40,063 nt of DNA from Lachnospiraceae bacterium (lineage in GTDB: Bacteria > Bacillota > Clostridia > Lachnospirales > Lachnospiraceae): the NCBI GenBank assembly GCA_021205305.1, contig JAJPXU010000048.1, positions 41,218 through 81,280 on the forward strand, read 5' to 3'. Every line of letters starts with the position of its first letter. The stretch's first letter is position 1. The notes beneath the pieces were generated by a model. That model was not told where the DNA came from and searched no databases. It saw only the letters and a list, made by a program, of their open reading frames with translations. This document shows positions 9,070 through 25,608 of this stretch, one piece after another. The position numbers and the translations under genes are program-made.

Positions 9070-9286
9070 GTCTTTTCTCCATTCCAAACCGCCGGAAACA
9101 AGATCCCCGCGTCTCCGGCAAATCAACCCAGCTGCCCGCCGCATTCCATTTTGGCAGGCCTGTAACAACTCCATTCATTCAATAAATGAGTATACCATGA
9201 CATCGGCTTTGTTTCAACGAGGCAATCTTATTTTTCTCTTATTTTTTCCACAAGTTCAGAACAGCATCGAACAGCAATTTCCCCAC

Positions 9287-9359: not shown

Positions 9360-9872
9360 ATGTCTGAACCGATTACACTCTACAAACTGATCATTCTGTA
9401 TATGCTGGACAAGGCGGATTTTCCGCTGACGGACGCACAGATCTCTGATTTCATCCTGAATCAGGGCTATACCGATTATTTTACTCTTCATTCGGTACTC
9501 GGTGACCTGGAGGACAGCCAGATGATCCACAGCGAAACGATCCAGGACTGCGTATATTATACCATCAAGGATTCCGGCACGGAGGCGCTGAAGTATTTCC
9601 GCCACCGCATCTCGCCTTCCATCCGTCAGGAAGTAGACCGGTATATGGCAGAAAATAAAGTTCGGATGCGTGATGAGGTTTCCGTACTTGCAGATTATTA
9701 CAAAACGACGAGTGGGGATTACTCTGTACGCTGCCTCGTAAAAGAAAAATTTTCCAACCCAATCGACCTGACCATCACGGTCGCGACGGAGAGCCAGGCA
9801 AAAACCGCCTGCCGCCGCTGGCGCGAACACAGCCAGCGCATTTATCAATTCATTATGGAGGAGTTATTATGA
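9360..9872 (+). CDS. DUF4364 family protein
   Basis: 170 aa, MSEPITLYKLIILYMLDKADFPLTDAQISDFIL...; typical of the Clostridia family; RBS gagaggtg upstream. Confidence 0.85.
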   Translation: MSEPITLYKLIILYMLDKADFPLTDAQISDFILNQGYTDYFTLHSVLGDLEDSQMIHSETIQDCVYYTIKDSGTEALKYFRHRISPSIRQEVDRYMAENKVRMRDEVSVLADYYKTTSGDYSVRCLVKEKFSNPIDLTITVATESQAKTACRRWREHSQRIYQFIMEELL

Positions 9873-11298: not shown

Positions 11299-11976
11299 TT
11301 ATTCGTATCCGTTGTATTCCGACATCACACCCAGCATTTTCTCCACATTTGCAGCACGATCACCGTTAAACACCGCAGAACCGGCCACGCAGACATTCGC
11401 CCCGGCTGCAAGAACCGTCCGCAGCGTCTTATCATTTATGCCGCCATCCACCTCAATATCAAGCGGAAGCCCCAGTTCAAGCGCTTTCTGACGAAGGGCA
11501 CGGATCTTTCCGGTCATCTCAGGGATATATGCCTGTCCGCCATACCCCGGATTTACCGTCATAATCAATACCATATCGAGATACGGAAGCACATAATCAA
11601 GGACACTCAGAGAAGTAGCCGGATTGAGCGCAACCCCCGCGCGCAGCCCAAGGCTCTTGATATCGTGAAGAACCCGCTGCAGATGTTTTGCGGTCTCAGC
11701 GTGTACGGTAATGCTGTCTGCGCCGCAGGCGGCGAAATCCGCTATGTATTTCTCCGGCTCAGTGATCATCAGGTGGACATCAAAGACGCTGTCCGTCGCA
11801 CTGCGGATGGAAGAAATCACAGGCATACCAAAAGAAATGCTCGGCACAAAAACACCATCCATCACATCGATGTGCAGGTAGCTGGCGCCTGCCTTTGCCA
11901 CAGTCTCTACTTCATTGCCCAGATGCTTAAAATCAGCCGCCAGAATAGACGGTGCCAGTATATTTTTCCGCTCCAT
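11299..11976 (-). CDS. rpe: ribulose-phosphate 3-epimerase
   Basis: LAPSILAADFKHLGNEV, YLHIDVMDGVFVPSISFG, MTVNPGYGGQAYI. Start at 11976 (MERKN), preceded by gggaga. Confidence 0.95.
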   Translation of the reverse strand: MERKNILAPSILAADFKHLGNEVETVAKAGASYLHIDVMDGVFVPSISFGMPVISSIRSATDSVFDVHLMITEPEKYIADFAACGADSITVHAETAKHLQRVLHDIKSLGLRAGVALNPATSLSVLDYVLPYLDMVLIMTVNPGYGGQAYIPEMTGKIRALRQKALELGLPLDIEVDGGINDKTLRTVLAAGANVCVAGSAVFNGDRAANVEKMLGVMSEYNGYE

Positions 11977-12000: not shown

Positions 12001-12192
12001 GTTCTTTTGTAACAGTTCAGAACAGCATCGAAATGAAAAGACAGACTGTGCAGGTTTACCTGCTAAAGGCTGTATTTTCATTTCGGGATGGGCGAAACGC
12101 CCATCAAGCCTCAGACATATGACGCGTCAGCGGCATATAGCCTTCAAAGAAGGCGGTCTGTGGCCTGCTGTTCTGAATAGTTACGTTCTTTT
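12001..12192. mobile_element. MITE-like element A (12009-12184) with 8-bp target duplication GTTCTTTT (12001-12008 and 12185-12192)
   Basis: Ends GTAACAGTTCAGAACAGCAT (12009-12028) and CTGCTGTTCTGAATAGTTAC (12165-12184) are near-perfect inverted repeats, flanked directly by identical 8-bp gttctttt; related copy at ~25298-25431. Confidence 0.85.
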
Positions 12193-12275: not shown

Positions 12276-13217
12276 TCAATATTTCCGCCTGCCCTTCAGT
12301 TCCTCGGCCAACAGCTCATAGCTCTCATATCTTGCCCGGTGGATTTCCCCTTTTTCTACTGCCTCCTTCACGGCACAGTCCGGCTCTTTTAGGTGCATAC
12401 AGCCCTGAAACCGGCAAAAAGACTCATACGGAGCAAATTCGTGAAAATAGTCTTTCAATTCTTCGTATTCGATATCCTGTAAATAGAGGGAACTAAAACC
12501 AGGAGTATCCAGGATATAGCTGCTGACAGGAAGTTCTCCTTCCTGATCATATATATCCGTATCCGCCTCCGCATCTTCTTTCCCGTATGATTTCAATACC
12601 AATAACTCTGTGTGACGGGTCGTGTGCTTCCCACGGTCGATTTTCCGGCTGATCTCTCCTACTTCCATGTGTTCTTCCGGCAAAAAACAATTGGTCAGGG
12701 AAGATTTCCCGACTCCGGACGGACCTGCCAGCACAGTCGTCTTCGCTTCCAGAAGTACACGGATTTCATTCAGGCCTTCCTTCTGCGCAGCGCTTACAAA
12801 ACGCACTTCGCAGCCGCAGCCGCGGTAAATCTGCTCCAAATCCCGCGCCTGCCCTTCGTCGGCCAGATCGGTCTTATTAAAACAAATGATGACAGGGATC
12901 TCCTGACGGTTCATGAGGATCAGGAATCGATCCAGCAGATTCAGGTTAGGCTTAGGGTGTGTCAGCGCAAATACCACCATCGCCTGATCGACATTAGCGG
13001 TAGCCGGCCGAATCAGCATATTTTTTCGCGGCAGCAGAAAGTCAACATTTCCGGTCTGTTCTTTTTCATCCAATATGGAAATCTCGACATCGTCACCAAC
13101 AAGAGGCTTCACCTTTTCCTTGCGGAATATGCCCTTTGCCCTGCACTCGTAAACCTCTCCATTTTCGGCGTGAACGTAATAAAACCCGCCGACTCCTCTG
13201 ATTATCTTTCCACGCAT
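12276..13217 (-). CDS. rsgA: ribosome small subunit-dependent GTPase A
   Basis: Circularly permuted GTPase: CFNKTDL, AGPSGVGKSSLTNCF, ILDTPGFSS, CRFQGCMHLKEPDCAVKEAV. Confidence 0.94.
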   Translation of the reverse strand: MRGKIIRGVGGFYYVHAENGEVYECRAKGIFRKEKVKPLVGDDVEISILDEKEQTGNVDFLLPRKNMLIRPATANVDQAMVVFALTHPKPNLNLLDRFLILMNRQEIPVIICFNKTDLADEGQARDLEQIYRGCGCEVRFVSAAQKEGLNEIRVLLEAKTTVLAGPSGVGKSSLTNCFLPEEHMEVGEISRKIDRGKHTTRHTELLVLKSYGKEDAEADTDIYDQEGELPVSSYILDTPGFSSLYLQDIEYEELKDYFHEFAPYESFCRFQGCMHLKEPDCAVKEAVEKGEIHRARYESYELLAEELKGRRKY

Positions 13218-23719: not shown

Positions 23720-25216
23720 CTAACCCCTTTTATCTTCCTCCAGAATCTCGCGGATCAGCACCCGCTCATCCATCGGATACTGCACGCCGCGGATTTCCTG
23801 GTAATCCTCGTGTCCTTTGCCTGCCAGAACGATGATATCGCCCGGCTCACCATGGTGAATCGCCCAGGCAATGGCCTCCTTGCGGTCAGTAATCCTGATA
23901 TACTTCCCATCCGTCTTCTCTATGCCCGTTACGATATCCTCAATAATCGCCTCAGGCTCCTCAAAACGCGGATTATCAGAAGTAATCACCGTCAGATCCG
24001 CAAGCTTTCCGGAAACCTCTCCCATCTCATAACGACGAAGCTTCGAGCGGTTCCCCCCGCAGCCAAATACGCTGACCAGGCGATGCGGATGATATTCCCG
24101 CAGCGTCTCCAGAAGGCTCTGGAGCGCCATCGCGTTGTGCGCATAATCAATCATCAGCGTGAACTCGTCGGAAACCTTTACCAGTTCAACACGGCCCTTC
24201 ACCTTTGCCACCTTCAGCGCTTTCTGGATATCTTCGATCCCTACCTTAAAATGGCGGCAGATCGCAATCGCTGTCAGAGAATTATATACACTAAACTTAC
24301 CCGGAATGTCAATCTCAACATCAAAAGAAGTCTTATCCGCCTCACCCGACGCGGTTTCATCTTTCCATGAAACGGTATACGCGATTCCCAGATACCCCGG
24401 CCGCGATACCAGCTGTAAGTTTTCTGCGCGCACACCCGCCTGTTCCGACAGGCCAAAGGTCTCCACCTCACAGGTATGCCCCTTTAGAATCTCCTCCAGA
24501 TGTGCGTCATCCGCATTCAGAATCCCATATTTACACTGTTTAAACAGGCGGCTTTTACACTCCAGGTAATCCTCAAAGCTTTCATGCTCCGCCGGTCCGA
24601 TGTGATCCGGCTCAATATTTGTAAAAATCCCAATCTCAAACGGAATCCCCGCCGTGCGCTCCAGCATCAGCCCCTGCGAAGAAACCTCCATCACCACCAC
24701 CTGGCAGCCCGCGTCCGCCATGCGGCGGAAATATTCCTGAATCGTATAAGACTCCGGCGTTGTATTGTGCGCCGGGATCTTCTCCTCACCGATAATCGCC
24801 TCAATCGTCCCAATCAGGCCAACCTTATAACCAGCCGACTCCAGAATCGACTTTACCATATAAGTCGTCGTCGTCTTGCCCTTCGTCCCGGTCACACCAA
24901 TGATGCGCATCTCATTCGCCGGATATCCAAAATACGCCGCCGACATCAAAGCCATCGCATAGCGCGTATCCGCCACGCGAATCACAGTCACATCCTCCGG
25001 CGCTTCCACCGCATCCTGCACGACCAGCACCTTCGCGCCCTTCGCCACCACATCCGGCACATACTTGTGTCCGTCCGTCACTGCTCCCTTTATACAAAAA
25101 AACAGAGAACCCTCCTCGACCTTCCGCGAATCATTGACCAGTTTTTTCACATCCGTGTCAACAGTTCCCTGCAAACATTCATATTCCATCCGCTCAAGCA
25201 GTTTTTCCAGCTTCAT
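23720..25216 (-). CDS. murE: UDP-N-acetylmuramoyl-L-alanyl-D-glutamate--2,6-diaminopimelate ligase
   Basis: GVTGTKGKTTTTYMV; SDNPRFEEP contains the DNPR motif associated with meso-DAP specificity. Confidence 0.94.
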   Translation of the reverse strand: MKLEKLLERMEYECLQGTVDTDVKKLVNDSRKVEEGSLFFCIKGAVTDGHKYVPDVVAKGAKVLVVQDAVEAPEDVTVIRVADTRYAMALMSAAYFGYPANEMRIIGVTGTKGKTTTTYMVKSILESAGYKVGLIGTIEAIIGEEKIPAHNTTPESYTIQEYFRRMADAGCQVVVMEVSSQGLMLERTAGIPFEIGIFTNIEPDHIGPAEHESFEDYLECKSRLFKQCKYGILNADDAHLEEILKGHTCEVETFGLSEQAGVRAENLQLVSRPGYLGIAYTVSWKDETASGEADKTSFDVEIDIPGKFSVYNSLTAIAICRHFKVGIEDIQKALKVAKVKGRVELVKVSDEFTLMIDYAHNAMALQSLLETLREYHPHRLVSVFGCGGNRSKLRRYEMGEVSGKLADLTVITSDNPRFEEPEAIIEDIVTGIEKTDGKYIRITDRKEAIAWAIHHGEPGDIIVLAGKGHEDYQEIRGVQYPMDERVLIREILEEDKRG

Positions 25217-25262: not shown

Positions 25263-25431
25263 AGGTGCGGGCACAGTCACATGCCGCAGTTTCTGAACTC
25301 CATCCCAAAATGAAAATACAGTCTTTAGCAGATAAATCTGCACATCTCCGCTTCGCTCCGGTCGGTGCTAAACGAGCGCCACTGGCGCTCAGCACCTGTT
25401 TTTTCATTTTGATGCTGTTCTGAACTGTTAC
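25263..25431 (-). mobile_element. MITE-like element B, related to the element at 12009-12184 (one intact GTAAC end at 25431)
   Basis: Minus strand reads GTAACAGTTCAGAACAGCATCAAAATGAAAAAACAG...TGTGCAGATTTATCTGCTAAAGACTGTATTTTCATTTTGGGATGG, near-identical to element A except for a ~50-nt internal hairpin insert. Confidence 0.75.
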
Positions 25432-25434
25432 TAA

Positions 25435-25608
25435 CATTTTACCACGATAAGCAGAGTTGGACAAGGAGGAAATCTTTTTGGGGAAACTTCATCTTTAGAA
25501 GTGTATCAGGCTTTCAAATCAGTACAATGGAGTCCATATACTTCCGATAAGGAACTGTCTGAAATAACAGCAAAATTATTTCGTAACAGATTCTTAGCTC
25601 AACTATAG
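25435..25608 (+). pseudogene. open frame without start codon, possible 3' remnant of an unknown gene
   Basis: Frame reads HFTTISRVGQGGNLFGETSSLEVYQAFKSVQWSPYTSDKELSEITAKLFRNRFLAQL*; begins right after the end of MITE-like element B; no ATG. Confidence 0.35.

Follow-up and report, generated by a model that had tools for sequence, protein, structure and literature searches.

A murE-like gene of a Lachnospiraceae bacterium is preceded by a hairpin-rich repeat (element B), which differs from a second repeat (element A) in the same window, i.e. the whole stretch of 40,063 nucleotides that was analysed, by changes on both arms of its stems. Base-pair covariation is often read as the strongest evidence that an RNA has a function, and a sequence-only reading of the window had proposed that the structure is maintained either as an RNA or as single-stranded DNA for mobility. 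What, then, is B, and at which level do its paired bases change together?

Elements A and B and their family

A and B belong to one repeat family, as had been claimed from the sequence: the start of B at 25431 (minus strand), GTAACAGTTCAGAACAGCATC, is identical to the start of A at 12009 (plus strand). Chance is excluded by four matches to AGTTCAGAACAGCATC in the window with up to three mismatches (0.32 expected), by 59 BLAST matches to B in the host genome (G000, a draft assembly from a Lachnospiraceae genus) and by 173 family-type 15-base ends with at most one mismatch in that genome, compared with one for a reversed-pattern control. The two elements comprise the following features:

12001..12008, plus strand: left 8-bp target duplication of A, GTTCTTTT
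12009..12184, plus strand: element A, a MITE copy of 176 bp, complete at both terminal inverted repeats (TIRs)
12185..12192, plus strand: right 8-bp target duplication of A, GTTCTTTT
25289..25299, minus strand: rearranged right boundary of B, GAGTTCAGAAA; AGTTCAGAAA is common to the two closest species
25300..25431, minus strand: element B, an A-type MITE copy of which the 5' (left) part is kept and the right end is lost or rearranged
25306..25321, minus strand: 3' arm of the long stem P1 in B, CTGTATTTTCATTTTG
25328..25341, minus strand: hairpin GCAGA-TTTA-TCTGC in B, in which pair 46-51 covaries
25345..25396, minus strand: nested repeat H in B, GGTGCT GAGCGCC AGT GGCGCTC GTTT AGCACC plus the tail GACCGGAGCGAAGCGGAGA, absent from A
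25396..25411, minus strand: 5' arm of P1 in B, CAAAATGAAAAAACAG
25414..25431, minus strand: left TIR of B, GTAACAGTTCAGAACAGC, an exact TIR match

Element A runs from GTAACAG to ATAGTTAC over 176 bp, with rsgA (12276-13217, minus strand) on one side and a ribulose-phosphate epimerase gene (11299-11976, minus strand) on the other. Its inverted ends agree at 16 of 18 positions, i.e. the TIR pair GTAACAGTTCAGAACAGC/GTAACTATTCAGAACAGC is slightly unequal; complete A-type copies carry the 18-bp inverted ends GTAACNRTTCAGAACAGC. As for B, the start at 25431 given by the sequence-only reading stands, whereas the far end at 25263 has to be moved: copies match the B query up to position 141 (BLAST), hence family similarity stops at 25300, and 25263-25299 is flank or a rearranged end of B. 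A full-length copy in the host genome (G000:C157) is 96% identical to B across the length of B. No target duplication is found in B, in line with the earlier observation, but A and the family do have one of 8 bp.

This duplication is sharply defined. Among 126 complete copies it is exact in 30 and has at most one mismatch in 53, while duplications of other lengths (4-7 and 9-12 bp) are exact in none to two copies; mean flank identity is 0.70 at 8 bp vs 0.30-0.46 at other lengths. The duplicated targets are A+T-rich. By size, at most one mismatch separates them in 24 of 43 type I copies that reach 140 bp or more and in 15 of 49 elements no longer than 70 bp. Element sizes span from below 60 to 328 bp, and 54 of 55 copies lie outside ORFs, with one inside. 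The family thereby combines the hallmarks of a MITE, i.e. TIRs, a duplication of fixed length, a 176-bp non-coding core and dozens of copies in each genome. Long TIRs with 8-bp duplications are typical of DDE-type elements, which move as double-stranded DNA, and the TIRs, the sharp 8-bp duplication and the copy number together indicate that the MITE was moved by a DDE-type transposase.

Exact 18-base ends were found in 16 of 47 genus genomes (controls 0), and 242 ends in the congener G118 with two mismatches allowed (controls 0); beyond the genus, only one of 99 sampled family genomes has such an end. A second interior type of around 143 bp with the same TIRs occurs mainly in rumen Lachnospiraceae (L239, L253, L270, L294, L297, L338 and L344). 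Comparison of A with plasmids and phages gave no match, and a literature search that reached few subscription papers found no account of such repeats in Lachnospiraceae. A MITE family with IS66-type ends and this unusual modular hairpin interior is new.

The window also holds a lone left-end fragment, AAGTTCAGAACAGCATCGAA (9248-9271, plus strand), which precedes an ORF with its start at 9360 by around 90 bases; it is a third, decayed copy of the family.

Transposase type and the murE insertion

The GTAAC ends together with the 8-bp duplications suggest IS66. ISDge4, a member of the ISBst12 group of IS66, is described with an 8-bp repeat and with TIRs that read GTGACTACTCAGCA/GTAACTGCTCAGCA (PMC12898284). 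Early TIR scans of IS66 loci gave nothing; a looser TIR pattern, prompted by the ISDge4 paper, led to a complete 2,267-bp single-ORF IS66-type element in the congener G108 (locus L232, 1218-3484), with TIRs GTTACTATTCAC and a perfect 8-bp duplication, ACTATTTT. Its ORF encodes an IS66 transposase of 530 aa, which matches PF03050 above the cut-off and NF033517 below it. The closer MITE end is identical to the TIRs of this element at 10-11 of 14 positions; since several 14-mers within L232 score as high (one reaches 11 identities, five reach 10), the TIRs by themselves give a weak match, and it is the 8-bp duplication and the end geometry that carry weight. At this identity the L232 element represents a related end type and not the partner of the MITE.

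No autonomous element with exactly these MITE TIRs and a transposase was found in the draft genomes searched. As candidate partners, TIR pairs 450-8000 bp apart in the loci examined were rejected, enclosing only host genes or no IS structure, as were repeated ORFs inside lone TIRs (host or phage genes only) and a 1.96-kb TIR pair in G118, which contains a host gene; viral contigs gave 81 scattered TIR matches and no IS-like pairs. IS66 genes are present in 21 of the 47 genus genomes, with no IS66 gene or PF03050 match in G000, G114, G118, G119 and G120, the genomes richest in MITE ends. Draft assemblies often lose multi-copy IS, so that missing IS66 genes, or a missing partner, in such assemblies and MAGs are weak evidence.

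Two features define the site of B:

23720..25216, minus strand: murE-like Mur ligase gene downstream of B, with Mur_ligase, Mur_ligase_M and Mur_ligase_C domains
25436..25464, minus strand: predicted murE promoter, TTGTCC-17 bp-TAAAAT with an extended -10 TG; B begins 4 bases past the -10 hexamer

Besides the host, the element occupies the same place in the murE leader in G120, G108, G118, G114 and G119; the promoter is conserved in these six species and in two others, G112 and G117, which keep it with the element absent. B is an orthologous insertion, i.e. one old event just past the extended -10 of murE in six species, and this age explains its missing target duplication. From this position B is predicted to lie at the start of the murE transcript, which it would be expected to form. 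The interiors of the orthologous copies vary: G120 and G108 have nearly bare ends without stem P1, G118 and G114 carry H of another stem type and G119 has a short form. The folds of the orthologous leaders likewise differ among species, and with interiors and folds both differing, a conserved murE leader RNA is not supported.

Repeat H and the origin of the covariation

Element A folds into one closed tree (-91.6 kcal/mol, z = -12.3 vs dinucleotide shuffles), and the remaining 132 bases of B reach -44.9 kcal/mol (z = -4.0, likewise vs dinucleotide shuffles). The two-arm stem changes from A to B had been described correctly, i.e. CGAAAT/ATTTCG to CAAAAT/ATTTTG and GCAGG-TTTA-CCTGC to GCAGA-TTTA-TCTGC. 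Both changes (pairs 22-76 and 46-51) are present in 5 of 39 distinct aligned copies; they are hence not private to B and are mostly inherited, within a subfamily. Across these 39 copies, 2,630 of 2,768 paired cells are Watson-Crick. Covariation had been set beforehand as the check on a maintained structure, and paired positions do exceed a tree-aware null: with substitutions redistributed across a FastTree tree (400 replicates), the summed G over 71 pairs is 87.0 vs 12.6 ± 9.0 (null maximum 55.6), the structure being the fold of A, a choice that favours pairing in general and not covariation. Double changes on the same branch number 10, compared with 1.1 under the null (maximum 4). The covariation in the MITE family is real, and the idea of a maintained structure holds on this ground and on the fold of A, but neither of the two levels proposed for it does.

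The extra hairpin of B without counterpart in A (25345-25396) is also real. It is a copy of a separate repeat, H, of around 52-54 bp, composed of the stems S1 and S2, the loop AGT, the linker GTTT and the tail GACCGRAGCGRAGCGKAGA. The exact H tail occurs in 34 of the 47 genus genomes, with 37 occurrences in G000 and 48 in G116 (controls 0). In a set filtered for pairing, H has 8 types of S1 and 17 of S2, almost all of them paired without a fault, and a summed G of 280 vs 43 ± 18 under the null; without this filter, 77 copies give 979 Watson-Crick cells out of 1,042. A-type MITE forms with or without H measure 176, 225, 227, 277, 279 and 327-328 bp. By eye, H seems to be nested in another H, in either orientation, at L015, L108 and L177, and larger composite palindromes with other hairpins inserted surround H-like tails at L504, L011 and L019. 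GA-cis RNA matches (RF02987) were seen at loci with H or the MITE, i.e. L510 (1399-1480, overlapping H), L505 (2324-2407) and L288 (2337-2420).

It is possible, though we lean the other way, that H is a small mobile hairpin which prefers hairpin loops and is independent of the MITE, a reading compatible with the MITE explanation of B. In its favour, H occurs without a MITE TIR in G101, G115 and G121, its presence or absence is independent at three MITE sites (forms from 176 to 327-328 bp), and it apparently lies within itself. It is further found inside Clostridiales-1 RNA matches (RF01699) of congeners, where it fills or replaces one model loop in L497 (1462-1671, minus strand) and has its tail matched within L524 (1441-1666, minus strand). 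Seven of 26 H copies outside the MITE sit between inverted flanks of a level reached by 2.5% or less of random placements, but it is just these seven, so that H tends to be nested in larger palindromes without always being so. Moreover, filled and empty MITE sites differ, by eye, by an exchange of H for 2-3 bases with no duplication seen, no enzyme is known for it (Y1_Tnp is absent from the H-rich genomes G000, G107, G114 and G116, and no transposase is linked to H), and recombination among palindromic repeats could spread H as well. Doubtful, in our judgement, is the wider proposal that H represents a distinct class of bacterial mobile hairpin of around 54 bp, which would enter the loops of hairpin repeats and structured RNAs, its nested palindromes staying perfectly paired through concerted mutation of both arms and not through RNA selection.

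It is unlikely that the repeats are expressed as structured RNAs or serve as cis-regulatory leaders, with the paired changes reflecting selection on an RNA fold. The covariation above the tree-aware null would agree with it, as would the fold of A at 12 sd below shuffles, the start of B at the predicted murE transcription start and the occurrence of H within two Rfam Clostridiales-1 RNA matches. In a working RNA strand, however, G-U should outnumber A-C at variable pairs, and this is not so: in the 39-copy alignment, G-T is found at 13 and A-C at 14 positions on the modelled strand (leaving aside two positions at which G-T prevails), and in H the count is 7 vs 24. Copies close to gene starts show no preferred orientation (13:17), cmscan against Rfam at the gathering score matched neither A nor B, and the murE leaders of the six species differ in fold, P1 being missing in G120 and G108. 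The earlier suggestion of a structure kept as an RNA is not supported on these points, and the changes at paired bases of B, though real, are no sign of an RNA at work at the murE site.

Far less probable still is mobility as single-stranded DNA, i.e. that a Y1 (RAYT) transposase acted on them as on REP/BIME-like or IS200/IS605-type elements: multi-copy intergenic hairpins and Y1_Tnp genes in 25 of the 47 genus genomes would suit it, but long TIRs and 8-bp duplications of the DDE double-stranded DNA type are foreign to Y1 elements and rule it out for the MITE, Y1_Tnp being absent from the host genome and from the copy-rich G114 as well.

Template switching makes compensatory changes in a single step (PMC8794818). 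Given this known process, the random orientation and the lack of a wobble excess, hairpin upkeep at the DNA level (template switching and gene conversion) is preferred over RNA selection. We infer that template switching lies behind the paired changes of the MITE; selection acting on the structure might also have produced this pattern of covariation.

Taken together, we consider it likely that B, an old copy with a damaged right end, belongs to a non-autonomous IS66-type (ISBst12-like) MITE of Lachnospiraceae, a common element of gut bacteria, with hairpins kept up at the DNA level and an insertion at murE that predates the divergence of its carriers. An IS66-family transposase, absent from the draft genome or since lost, would have acted in trans, moving the MITE copies as double-stranded DNA. 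Between its TIRs the element is a hairpin tree whose branches come and go, H included at three fixed sites, and whose paired positions change jointly. The two-arm changes would arise mainly in DNA, by template switching within hairpins and gene conversion among copies, and could thus keep the palindromes intact without a conserved RNA function. B itself inserted just past the murE -10 box before the six species diverged, its interior being remodelled differently across them later.

Here, a mobile DNA element whose ends are clearly those of a transposon covaries strongly, turns over its hairpins as modules and has no conserved fold at an orthologous site; in six species it is placed at the predicted transcript start of murE, an essential cell-wall gene. 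The MITE is a concrete test case for covariation that arises in DNA, and may matter for the reading of some Rfam 'structured RNAs' of gut Clostridia, as Clostridiales-1 carries the same nested repeat H. H and the origin of the covariation are, in our view, the more interesting part.

Comparison with known systems

The MITE shares with the ISBst12 group of IS66 (ISDge4, PMC12898284) the TIR start GTNACT(A/G)(C/T)TCA, slightly unequal ends and the 8-bp duplication; unlike that group, it is without a transposase gene, its exact TIR is different and a cognate full-length element was not found. Clostridiales-1 RNA (RF01699) is a structured element of related bacteria, into which H is inserted in L497 and which it overlaps in L524, while A and B do not match it. 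Short palindromes set within other palindromes, which build up larger and elaborate repeats, are also described for the nested repeats of Volvox organelles and for the double-hairpin elements of Allomyces mtDNA cited in the same source (PMC2670323); both are organellar, are likened here by description, and have no IS66-type ends described in the available portion of that source.

Parallels are also found among bacterial MITEs (reviewed in PMC10969869). QMITE2 of Coxiella burnetii, for example, is like the present family in its TIRs, 7-9-bp direct repeats, intergenic location, stable predicted fold and non-autonomous nature, but differs in that our MITE has a multi-branched interior whose branches are gained and lost at fixed sites, giving elements from below 60 to 328 bp. 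The BOX elements of Streptococcus pneumoniae (PMC3049150) are likewise modular, in that hairpin modules may or may not be present inside them, and they too have TIRs and target duplications; in these, boxB modules stand in tandem between boxA and boxC, whereas H occupies three sites apart from one another and is found outside the MITE as well.
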